In this document: positions 56,184-59,498 of the stretch, in pieces
How positions within the stretch are numbered: the first letter of the stretch is position 1
Layout of the letters: each line of letters begins with the position of its first letter
The notes under the pieces: generated by a model
The model's database searches: none
What the model saw: the letters and a program-made list of their open reading frames with translations, nothing else
What the model was told of the DNA's origin: nothing
Assembly: GCA_017540545.1 (NCBI GenBank)
Contig: JAFYAV010000002.1
Coordinates: 242,588 to 306,587 of the forward strand
Length of the DNA: 64,000 nucleotides
From: Candidatus Saccharimonadota bacterium
GTDB taxonomy: Bacteria > Patescibacteriota > Saccharimonadia > Saccharimonadales > Saccharimonadaceae
Direction: 5' to 3'
Translations under genes and position numbers: made by a program

Positions 56184-56450
56184 TCAATGCTTAATCAGGT
56201 AATACGCCACGTCGTCAATTCGCGGCAAGTCACGCCCACGCCACATCTGAACCATCCTACCATCATCATCTAAAGCCAATATTGTCGGATATTCCACGAT
56301 GTCATGAGCCTTACAAAGACCCTCGCCCTCTGGCTCATCTGGCGAAAAACTCTCTGGCCCCACCCCCAATCGTCGTTCGCAATCATGTAACCACTCAATC
56401 ACGCTTCGAGCATAATCACTCTCCTCGCGCCAAATTGCCACCACCCTCAT
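56184..56450 (-). CDS. Thioredoxin-fold protein without the CxxC motif
   Basis: 88 residues. VVAIWREES at the start takes the place of the WCxxC active site (Trp7, then R-E-E-S). The cis-Pro strand appears as VEYPTILALDDDGRMVQMWRGRD. It is therefore thioredoxin-like in fold but probably not a redox enzyme. It begins 3 bp after the NrdR-like gene and is the last gene of the cluster. Confidence 0.7.
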   Translation of the reverse strand: MRVVAIWREESDYARSVIEWLHDCERRLGVGPESFSPDEPEGEGLCKAHDIVEYPTILALDDDGRMVQMWRGRDLPRIDDVAYYLIKH

Positions 56451-56453
56451 TTC

Positions 56454-56927
56454 TTATTTCTCCTTCTCTTTACGTTGCTTCATGCGCTCGCGTTGCTCGG
56501 CAATACTGCGTTCCAAATCATCTAACGACTTAAATTCCTTAAAGACACTCGCGAAACGCACATAGGCCATCTCGTTCGTCTCCGACAAAACTTCGAGGAT
56601 AATCTCGCCAATCACGCTAGATGGAATCTCGTCCTTACCCTTTTCGTAAATCAAATCCTCTACTCGATCAACAATATTCTGTACATCCAAATCACTATTA
56701 AAATACTTACCAACACTATTGCGGATTGCCTTTGCTAGCTTATCGCGATCAAATACCTCCCGCGAACCGCTACGTTTCTTCACCATTAAGCCAGGACGTT
56801 CAATTCGCTCATAGGTAGTAAAGCGATGTTTCCCATCCAAAGATACTCTGCGACGACGAATCGTGGTACCATCCTGCGATTCGCGGCTCTCTATCACCTT
56901 ACTTTCGCCAATCTTCAAATGGCTCAT
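56454..56927 (-). CDS. NrdR-like ATP-cone regulator without zinc-ribbon cysteines
   Basis: 157 residues aligning over the full length of NrdR, repressor of ribonucleotide reductase genes. KVIESRESQDGTTIRRRR and HRFTTYERIE are the conserved NrdR segments, and the ATP-cone (about 47-135: VFDRDKLAKAIRNSV, MAYVRFASVFKEF) is intact. In NrdR four Cys (CPxC...CxxC) build a zinc ribbon; here those places read MSHLKIGE and SLDGK, so no Cys remains. DNA binding may therefore be lost or changed. It lies 9 bp after ftsZ. Confidence 0.88.
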   Translation of the reverse strand: MSHLKIGESKVIESRESQDGTTIRRRRVSLDGKHRFTTYERIERPGLMVKKRSGSREVFDRDKLAKAIRNSVGKYFNSDLDVQNIVDRVEDLIYEKGKDEIPSSVIGEIILEVLSETNEMAYVRFASVFKEFKSLDDLERSIAEQRERMKQRKEKEK

Positions 56928-56936
56928 GAGGGTCTC

Positions 56937-58175
56937 CTAATCTTTGCTCTTTTTGCGGCGCCTCAAAATCGCCGGAATATCACTGTCGTCATCACTACCG
57001 CTATTGTTAGTGCGGATATTATCCCACATATTCACCGTCGTAGCTTCGGCGAAGTCCGCACTCTGGCTCTCCGGTTCGAACTTTTCGCTTTTCTTCTCAG
57101 CTTCCTTCACTGGATCGGCCATCGTTTGGCTTGGCTCCGTTAAGTTCTCAACCTTAGCTGTGGTGGTCTCGGCTGGAACCTGATTATACTCTTGCGCTCG
57201 TGGATCATCGCGGTAATACTCCGAATCAAATCCAGTTGCCACTACCGTAACAATAATCTCATCTTCGAGCTCTGGGCGAATCGATGCACCCCAAATAATA
57301 TTCGCATCTGGGCTAACGCTCGCCGTAATAAGCTCTGCAGCTTCGCGCATTTCGTCCATCGTCACATCATAACCGCCCGCAATCGAGAACAATACGCCAC
57401 GAGCACCATCGATAGATACCTCAATCAACGGCGACTCAATTGCCTGTTGTGCCGCAATACTCGCACGATTCTCACCTGAAGCGCGACCAATGCCCATTAA
57501 TGCCGAACCAGCATCCTTCATAATTGCCTTCACGTCGGCAAAATCTAGATTAATTAGGCTATGCTCAGTAATCAACTCAGAGATACCCTGCACGCCTTGG
57601 CGCAAAACCTCATCAGCAATCTTAAAAGTCTCGAGAATCGGCGTACGTTGGTCAATTGTTTGCAAAAGACGGTCGTTCGGAATCGTAATCAAAGCATCAA
57701 CATTGCGCGCCAAACGCTCAATTGCCCAGTCCGCATTCGCCTTGCGCTTTGCGCCTTCAAACGAAAACGGCTTCGTCACTACGCCAACTGCCAAAATATC
57801 TTGCTTGCGCGCTTCTTCGGCCACAATGTAGCCTGCGCCAGAACCAGTACCGCCGCCTGCACCAAAAGTAATGAACGCCATGTCTGCACCGGTTAGAGAA
57901 TTCTTAATTTCTTCACGGCTTTCTTCGGCCGCACGCTCACCGACCGTTGGATCAGCGCCGGCACCTAGACCATTCGTGGTCTCATGCCCAAGATGTACCT
58001 TAACATCTGCCTTCGAGTTATGCAAAGCCTGCGCATCGGTGTTCATTGCTATAAACTCGACGCCACTCAAACCAGCATCGCGCATGCGATTCACGGCAGA
58101 GCCGCCTGCACCACCAACGCCAATCACCTTAATGCTGGCTGTACTTTCCACCTCACTTGGTTTAACTTCAGGCAT
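56937..58175 (-). CDS. ftsZ: Cell division protein FtsZ
   Basis: 412 residues. The tubulin signature GGGTGSG is at 107-113 in FITFGAGGGTGSGAGY, preceded by IKVIGVGGAGGSAVNRM; the T7 loop NLDFADVKAIMKDAG follows. The C-terminal linker is disordered and ends in the conserved tail DIPAILRRRKK, the site for FtsA and other partners. It forms the GTP-dependent Z-ring. GTGAGGAG precedes the ATG. It lies 78 bp after ftsA. Confidence 0.98.
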   Translation of the reverse strand: MPEVKPSEVESTASIKVIGVGGAGGSAVNRMRDAGLSGVEFIAMNTDAQALHNSKADVKVHLGHETTNGLGAGADPTVGERAAEESREEIKNSLTGADMAFITFGAGGGTGSGAGYIVAEEARKQDILAVGVVTKPFSFEGAKRKANADWAIERLARNVDALITIPNDRLLQTIDQRTPILETFKIADEVLRQGVQGISELITEHSLINLDFADVKAIMKDAGSALMGIGRASGENRASIAAQQAIESPLIEVSIDGARGVLFSIAGGYDVTMDEMREAAELITASVSPDANIIWGASIRPELEDEIIVTVVATGFDSEYYRDDPRAQEYNQVPAETTTAKVENLTEPSQTMADPVKEAEKKSEKFEPESQSADFAEATTVNMWDNIRTNNSGSDDDSDIPAILRRRKKSKD

Positions 58176-58253: not shown

Positions 58254-59498
58254 CTATTTGAACTTCTTCATCAGCTTCGAGAAAAAGCCCTCACCCTTGG
58301 CGACCTTCGCTTTCTTGCCACCGGACAGAATATCGCCAAAGCCGCGCGCATTATCACTACTCTGAATCTCCGCATCCGCATACATTAACCCGACCGCCGT
58401 GGCATATTCTGGCTTCATAATTTCTTCACTTACACCTAAAACCCCCTCCGGCTTACCCAGACGCACAGCCAATTCCACCTGGTCACGCGCATATGCCTCA
58501 ATATCACGCAATTTCGAGCCGCCACCGACTAATACCAACCCTTCCGGCAACCTTTTGTCGTATCCAGCATGCTTTAACAGTTTGCGTACGCCCTCGAAAA
58601 TCTCCTCCAGACGTGCTTCCACTACCTCATCGACTTCCTTGCGCTCGAAACGATATTCGTCACGACCACGCTTGATTACAATATCCTTATCCGAGCCACC
58701 AAACTTCGCGGAGGCAAAACGTAACTTAATCTCTTCCGCAATCTCTGGAACCGTCTTCAAAACCGTCGCCAAATCATTCGTAATATCATTGCTACCAATC
58801 GGCACCACGCCCACAAACTGTAGCTCACCTTCATCATAAATCGCTACGCCAGTTGTCGCGCTGCCCATGTCTACTAGGCCGACACCATTCTCTTTTTGCG
58901 CATTCGTAATCACCGCCCGAGCTGCTGCTATTGCTGAGGGTTCTAGCGCTCGCACGCGTAAATTGCCCGCCTCACAAGCTTTTTGGATATTGTCACAATC
59001 TGGCGTCAAAGCCGAAATCACGTTCGCTCGCAACTCTAGACGCTCGCCATGCATTCCGAATGGCTCCTTAATGCCACCTTGACCATCTAAAATATACTCA
59101 TATGGAACTAAAGAAAGAATCTCGCGATTTGCCGGAATCTTACCAGCTATTGAGGCGTCGGCAATCCGATCAATATCATCGTTATTAATCTCATGATCGG
59201 CCACGCCAACCGCAATCATGCCATCAACCTTCGTGCTGCCAATATGCGACCCATTAATGTTCACAGTCGCATCATTCACCTCAATGCCACTCATCCCCTC
59301 TACCGCCCGCAAGCAAGTATCAATCACTCGCGGTGGCGACATTAGCTCCTTTACAATTCCGCGACGCAACCCCTCCGAAGGGACTTCACCATATCCTACC
59401 ACTGATATTTTTCCATCACGGCCAATCGCGCCCATGACGGCTCGGGTCGTACTAGTTCCAATATCTAACCCTACTGCAAAGCGAGCTTTTTCTTCCAT
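58254..59498 (-). CDS. ftsA: Cell division protein FtsA
   Basis: 414 residues of the actin/ASKHA fold. FAVGLDIGTSTTRAVMG is the first phosphate motif; VPSEGLRRGIVKE, the SHIGSTKV subdomain 1C region, and LVDMGSATTGVAIYDEGE and LVLVGGGSKLRD follow. The C-terminus ends FFSKLMKKFK, an amphipathic membrane-targeting helix. It tethers FtsZ to the membrane. TACAAT with a 6-nt gap to the ATG suggests a leaderless mRNA. Confidence 0.97.
   Translation of the reverse strand: MEEKARFAVGLDIGTSTTRAVMGAIGRDGKISVVGYGEVPSEGLRRGIVKELMSPPRVIDTCLRAVEGMSGIEVNDATVNINGSHIGSTKVDGMIAVGVADHEINNDDIDRIADASIAGKIPANREILSLVPYEYILDGQGGIKEPFGMHGERLELRANVISALTPDCDNIQKACEAGNLRVRALEPSAIAAARAVITNAQKENGVGLVDMGSATTGVAIYDEGELQFVGVVPIGSNDITNDLATVLKTVPEIAEEIKLRFASAKFGGSDKDIVIKRGRDEYRFERKEVDEVVEARLEEIFEGVRKLLKHAGYDKRLPEGLVLVGGGSKLRDIEAYARDQVELAVRLGKPEGVLGVSEEIMKPEYATAVGLMYADAEIQSSDNARGFGDILSGGKKAKVAKGEGFFSKLMKKFK

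Follow-up and report, generated by a model that had tools for sequence, protein, structure and literature searches.

NrdR proteins without zinc-ribbon cysteines form one clade in Saccharibacteria and probably still repress ribonucleotide reductase genes

In one large clade of Saccharibacteria the regulator NrdR has lost all four zinc cysteines of its ribbon, and our results suggest that the proteins concerned are very likely to be vertically inherited, dATP/ATP-sensing repressors of ribonucleotide reductase (RNR) genes still, with a DNA-binding ribbon that would fold without zinc. NrdR is a repressor in nearly all bacteria, where it controls the synthesis of DNA building blocks. The protein studied here is encoded in a stretch of 64,000 nucleotides (the window) from a genome of 795 kb in two contigs. 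The relevant features of the window are as follows; C4 denotes NrdRs with all four zinc cysteines.

56454-56927, minus strand: nrdR, encoding a cysteine-less NrdR of 157 amino acids (open reading frame; TIGR00244, PF03477 and PF22811 matches; orthology by synteny and phylogeny)
56898-56927, minus strand: residues 1-10, MSHLKIGESK, where C4 NrdRs have the first zinc knuckle; shorter by two residues and without Cys (alignments; predicted strands offset by exactly two residues)
56883-56897, minus strand: residues 11-15, VIESR, including E13 and R15, the equivalents of the base-reading D15 and R17 of solved NrdRs (V11, E13, S14 and R15 invariant in the clade; roles from PMC9110341 and PMC12176259)
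56847-56858, minus strand: residues 24-27, RRRR, phosphate-backbone arginines comparable to R26-R29 (invariant; role from PMC9110341)
56826-56846, minus strand: residues 28-34, VSLDGKH, the former second zinc knuckle, in which ECxxC has become x-[STA]-x-D-G with D31-G32 invariant (alignments)
56529-56786, minus strand: residues 48-133, the ATP-cone, with ligands V49, K51, R52, E57, F59 and K63 kept (PF03477; residue mapping)
56934-56938, minus strand: AGGAG, the Shine-Dalgarno sequence of nrdR, overlapping the ftsZ stop codon (sequence)
56937-58175, minus strand: ftsZ, immediately upstream of nrdR with a 9-bp gap (open reading frame; conserved neighbour)
58254-59498, minus strand: ftsA, a conserved neighbour (open reading frame; gene-order comparison)
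56184-56450, minus strand: a small conserved open reading frame of 88 amino acids downstream of nrdR (a YPT motif resembling that of thioredoxin, from visual inspection only)

The window NrdR has no cysteine over its whole length, yet it matches the zinc-ribbon family of NrdR, PF22811, with 43.9 bits (cut-off, 27.2) and the ATP-cone family PF03477 with 62.5 bits (cut-off, 25.8). Its score against the NrdR equivalog TIGR00244, 120.6 bits, lies just below the cut-off of 124.65, a value that several cysteine-less relatives exceed (e.g., G035 with 145 bits). NrdR has been described with two CxxC motifs that bind one zinc (PMC9110341, PMC12176259), and its hold on DNA is ascribed to that ribbon; both motifs are missing from the window protein and from the ribbons of 109 relatives. 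On our comparisons, therefore, the protein is an NrdR by descent that fails the zinc motif and the curated score, i.e., a zinc-free variant. The first-pass annotation had read the gene as an NrdR homologue stripped of every zinc Cys, with an intact ATP-cone and a place in the ftsZ cluster, and was correct in each of these respects. It had also named a sequencing error, a misplaced start or close relatives that all have the cysteines as grounds for abandoning that reading, and none of these was encountered. An in-frame stop codon three codons upstream of the start excludes a hidden cysteine-bearing N-terminal extension. That the gene is an artefact of sequencing, has a misplaced start or is a pseudogene is vanishingly improbable, as there are 109 cysteine-less sequences from many assemblies, frames are open and the start is secure, and no observation speaks for such an explanation.

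The loci retrieved for comparison supplied 180 NrdR sequences. Residues 1-45 contain no cysteine in 109 of them, and CxxC...CxxC is complete in 70; the last, L162, comes from a gene interrupted by a stop codon. Another 40 NrdRs, sampled from other families of the phylum, are C4 without exception and, bar the broken gene, no intermediate with one to three zinc cysteines was present among the 220 sequences checked. The 109 cysteine-less relatives are 48 to 99% identical to the window protein; the nearest public loci, with up to 99% identity, are from Saccharibacteria, many of them from ruminant guts. In all 109, with minor variants, the C4 pattern MkCPxC...VxESR...RRRRxCxxCxxRFTTYE has given way to ...KIG[DE]S[KR]VxESR...RRRRx[ST]xDGxxRFTTYE. 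Every cysteine-less NrdR that could be assigned to a genome comes from the GTDB family of the window, and C4 is kept in other genera of this family, in every other sampled family of the order and class, and in the NrdRs sampled from cyanobacteria, Actinomycetota and Desulfobacterales. A maximum-likelihood tree of 126 rows, built from the ATP-cone with the ribbon excluded, places the cysteine-less rows in one group (support, 99/90; recovered in 98% of bootstraps) nested inside the window's family among C4 genera. The four cysteines have thus, on this tree, been lost once, in one clade within the family, where the loss is fixed.

The gene order ftsA-ftsZ-nrdR-(nrdJ)-small open reading frame-ileS is common to C4 and cysteine-less forms, and hence the two forms of nrdR represent one orthologous gene, as the tree also indicates. 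Horizontal replacement and paralogy were considered and are ruled out by synteny and by the tree built without the ribbon. The overlap between the nrdR Shine-Dalgarno sequence and the ftsZ stop codon suggests co-transcription with ftsZ. The same ftsA-ftsZ-nrdR order occurs in Saccharibacteria and other Patescibacteria with a cysteine-bearing NrdR, so the location behind ftsZ is not special to the cysteine-less protein. The 88-residue open reading frame directly downstream of nrdR keeps its position in nearly all loci of the family that were read, and had no Pfam match above the cut-off.

The loss of cysteines is not decay, as the metal-free ribbon is the more conserved part of the protein: in the cysteine-less clade, mean column identity is 0.83 for the ribbon (residues 6-40) versus 0.69 for the ATP-cone, with corresponding values of 0.70 and 0.62 in C4 NrdRs. 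In the solved NrdRs of Streptomyces coelicolor and Escherichia coli, D15 and R17 contact bases while R12, R26-29 and R37 contact phosphates (PMC9110341; PMC12176259). All of these positions (D/E15, R17, R26-29, R37 and K/R12) are occupied as expected in the cysteine-less proteins, with E13, R15, R24-27 and R35 conserved in 100% of sequences and position 10 always K or R. What has changed lies between these residues: relative to C4 proteins, the first knuckle is short of two residues, and the second CxxC has given way to x-[STA]-x-D-G, of which D31 and G32 are invariant. An AlphaFold2 monomer model, computed with cysteine-less sequences as sole input, has a pLDDT of 90; its ribbon strands (residues 9-16, 22-29 and 35-41; pLDDT, approximately 86 to 89) are those of the C4 model (11-18, 24-31 and 37-43) offset by two, and the first ten residues have a pLDDT of 72. 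A fold search of the PDB with the predicted structure gave 13 matches at an E value of ≤0.001, all of them NrdR. As AlphaFold2 has probably seen NrdR structures, the model indicates compatibility with the fold and is no test of metal-free stability.

It could be argued that the ribbon still holds a metal through Asp, Glu or His residues that have taken the place of the cysteines, and D31, E13 and E40 are indeed invariant and D19 nearly so. However, the ribbon has no conserved Cys or His, E13 aligns with a residue that reads DNA, and D31-G32 looks like a tight turn. A zinc site made of four carboxylates would also be unusual, and we consider such a replacement highly unlikely.

The nucleotide-binding domain is likewise retained. 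By the residue set that marks two-nucleotide ATP-cones (V48, K50, R51, E56, K62 and Y128), the cysteine-less NrdRs belong to this type: V/I49, K51, E57 and K63 are kept in the clade, with the last three invariant, and position 52 is variable, being mostly K or R. In S. coelicolor NrdR, Y128 contacts the 2'-OH of ATP. The equivalent residue is Phe in the window protein (residue 129; window positions 56541-56543) and in 92 of the 109 cysteine-less NrdRs, and hence allostery may differ in most of the clade. The same change is found in four C4 relatives (G060, G003, G042 and G084). It may go with the class of RNR, as many genomes with Phe use NrdD.

The operators to which NrdR binds are also maintained. 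Genome-wide work consisted of pattern and family searches. Scores, out of 36, refer to the NrdR-box consensus acaCwAtATaTwGtgt, which agrees with the published expression; shuffled maxima come from 100 shuffles per nrdD promoter. This published expression (PMC12051234) served for the search for box pairs. The only other ATP-cone found in the window genome is that of a class III (anaerobic) RNR, NrdD, whose gene is followed by the activase gene nrdG, and a box pair matching the expression lies approximately 60 to 105 bp upstream of this nrdD. In the window's genus, all 12 nrdD-bearing genomes tested score 29 to 32 in the nrdD promoter versus shuffled maxima of 23 to 28, and two genomes with nrdJ in place of nrdD score 32 upstream of nrdJ. 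Hence, pairs of NrdR boxes three helical turns apart do remain upstream of nrd genes, a matter that the first-pass annotation had wanted to see settled. With a strict pattern applied to whole genomes, one to several matches were obtained in 19 of 19 cysteine-less genomes, while the reversed pattern, as a control, gave none in 26 of 26 genomes. Strict matches in the window's genus fall at nrdD, at nrdJ or at the gene for a stand-alone glycyl-radical protein (see below); two species have one at pyrG as well. Where a cysteine-less genome has an 805-residue RNR, the second box takes a variant form, and scores are weaker (23 to 30).

Conserved boxes would tell us nothing about this NrdR if their reader were a different protein, for instance a second, cysteine-bearing NrdR-like one. 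Such proteins exist: a divergent form with the pattern VCIYCG...WRRR...CxxC is present in other families, and in the window's family some genomes (G023, G032, G047 and G051), a number of them cysteine-less, have weak NrdR-like matches of comparable extent. Yet the near-complete genomes of the window's genus have a single TIGR00244 match each, as do most genomes of the genera g2 and g40, and these genomes have boxes; moreover, a second reader would leave no need for invariant DNA-contact residues in the cysteine-less protein. One NrdR was found in the window genome, which is 73.5% complete, and the absence of a second is read from its near-complete relatives. The cysteine-less NrdR is therefore the only known candidate reader of the boxes, and we judge a separate reader to be most improbable. 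The divergent protein (VCIYCGG.TRVINSRP...WRRRxC..C...FTT; 138 to 160 residues) was observed in other Saccharibacterial families (L184-L187), and none was found in the window's genus; the weak matches are at G023:C1:1135069, G032:C2:72411, G047:C2:28059 and G051:C1:25508.

The first-pass annotation had proposed that the protein may have a new role or a different mode of DNA binding. A zinc ribbon normally needs its metal and nrdR is tightly linked to ftsZ, both of which could point to a ribbon that no longer binds DNA and a protein with a new job, e.g., sensing nucleotides together with a partner protein from the cell-division cluster. Against this stand the invariance of the arginines and of the E/R pair that contact DNA in the solved structures, the genome-wide maintenance of box pairs and the occurrence of the same ftsZ linkage with C4 NrdRs; with the nucleotide-binding residues retained as well, a new role is not supported and appears very unlikely. 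The idea of another mode of DNA binding holds only in the weak sense that the metal is gone, since the DNA-contact surface is the same and would merely sit on a metal-free scaffold.

A repressor that is still functional could work as follows. In the known system, NrdR tetramers loaded with dATP and ATP bind two boxes separated by approximately three helical turns, and their ribbon pairs kink the DNA (PMC9110341, PMC12051234). In the cysteine-less protein, both zinc knuckles may be replaced, the first by a shorter hairpin, KIG[DE]S, and the second by a hairpin with the invariant Asp-Gly turn, the ribbon dimer may supply the missing stability and, together with the ATP-cone, hold the tetramer together, and tetramers loaded with dATP and ATP would then grip the two boxes and block transcription. 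Compared with the solved NrdRs (S. coelicolor, 7P37 and 7P3F; E. coli, 9FXK and 9FVR; family TIGR00244), the window NrdR has the same domain order, ATP-cone ligands, DNA-contact residues, boxes at RNR genes and predicted fold. It differs in having no zinc cysteines, a first knuckle shorter by two residues and an Asp-Gly turn for the second, and in that its own gene has no NrdR boxes and sits 9 bp behind ftsZ. A promoter scan for autoregulation found no box pair upstream of the cysteine-less nrdR genes. Box pairs are present upstream of most nrdR-nrdJ operons with a C4 NrdR, and C4 genera of the family without linkage to nrdJ also lack boxes at nrdR; hence, loss of autoregulation probably preceded loss of zinc. 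It is likely that nrdR left an autoregulated operon shared with nrdJ and joined that of ftsZ.

The lineage has probably given up structural zinc more widely. Across the Saccharibacterial genomes of the class that were surveyed (L357-L376), neither L36 nor L31 of the ribosome has zinc cysteines, whether NrdR is C4 or cysteine-less; this survey recovered 9 of 10 L36 and 6 of 10 L31 sequences. As genomes with a C4 NrdR also carry zinc-free L31 and L36, zinc loss from these proteins looks older than that from NrdR. The L36 segment that forms a zinc knuckle in C-plus L36 reads KISPDD, a change in the style of ECxxC to xSxDG in NrdR. This correlation suggests that the lineage is shedding its structural zinc sites and that NrdR is a late case; NrdR would then join L31 and L36 as a sign of such shedding in reduced, host-dependent bacteria. 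Zinc-free ribosomal proteins are well known. As in C-minus L31 and L36, a structural zinc site has been replaced and the protein stays in use; those, however, are RNA-binding proteins of the ribosome, whereas NrdR is an operator-specific regulator. Another parallel is found in domains D8 and D9 of E. coli topoisomerase I (Topo_Zn_Ribbon, PF08272), ribbons that lost their cysteines with the DNA-binding mode preserved (PMC9369019), as predicted here for NrdR. Those domains bind single-stranded DNA and are additional repeats at the C-terminus, next to others that carry zinc, whereas in NrdR it is the sole sequence-specific DNA-binding domain that has lost zinc.

We found no report of a zinc-free NrdR and no paper that names NrdR alongside Saccharibacteria or the candidate phyla radiation in a literature search that excluded most subscription journals and bioRxiv preprints. 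We tentatively propose, at a little less than an even chance, that these proteins form a metal-free NrdR class: the operator-specific ribbon would rely solely on protein turns and dimer contacts, RNR repression would depend on neither zinc nor the oxidation state of thiols, and control would extend to a small stand-alone glycyl-radical protein, which may serve as a spare part when class III RNR is damaged by oxygen. If this is true, zinc would be a scaffold of the NrdR ribbon and have no part in DNA recognition, and the C4 and C0 ortholog pairs from one bacterial family are a ready set for studying the transition from a zinc ribbon to a zinc-free one. Annotation by curated NrdR thresholds or by rules based on CxxC will overlook part of the cysteine-less clade.

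Stand-alone glycyl-radical proteins of 143 to 148 residues, with RRITGYLVG...ERWNDGKKAEE.RVKH in the C-terminal part, were observed in 11 genomes with a cysteine-less NrdR (L219 and L279-L288), each behind a box pair. The 144-residue protein of the window genome (L219:2854-3288, minus strand; G000:C1, approximately 97353-97787) ends in the NrdD glycyl-radical segment RRITGYLVG...RVKH. All 11 upstream box pairs score 29 to 32, versus shuffled maxima of 22 to 24, which strengthens the case for a maintained box regulon and a working NrdR in the cysteine-less clade. Validated spare parts of the glycyl-radical kind are reported to be limited to YfiD and its counterpart in T4, Y06I, which both serve pyruvate formate-lyase (PMC8683613). 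Much as YfiD/GrcA does for that enzyme, the stand-alone protein possibly acts as a spare part for the class III RNR NrdD, which, if true, would be new.

Several further box sites were observed. A third, palindromic NrdR-like box (ACACGCTATATATAGCGTGT; L220, approximately 1381-1401) lies approximately 177 bp upstream of nrdD in the window genome, outside the main pair. The pairs upstream of pyrG (CTP synthase) are at L321:1501-1543 and L322:1510-1552. Genus g40 (G082 and G040; L312-L320) has several near-perfect box pairs per genome at sites unrelated to RNR, which may be mobile repeats, terminators or an expanded regulon; as several lie between convergent genes, an expanded regulon is not claimed. 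Finally, no NrdD was detected in two early-branching genomes of the window's genus (G177 and G165; L268 and L272), which have an RNR of approximately 940 residues (PF02867, nrdJ-like) with strong box pairs, and the type of RNR thus changes within one genus.
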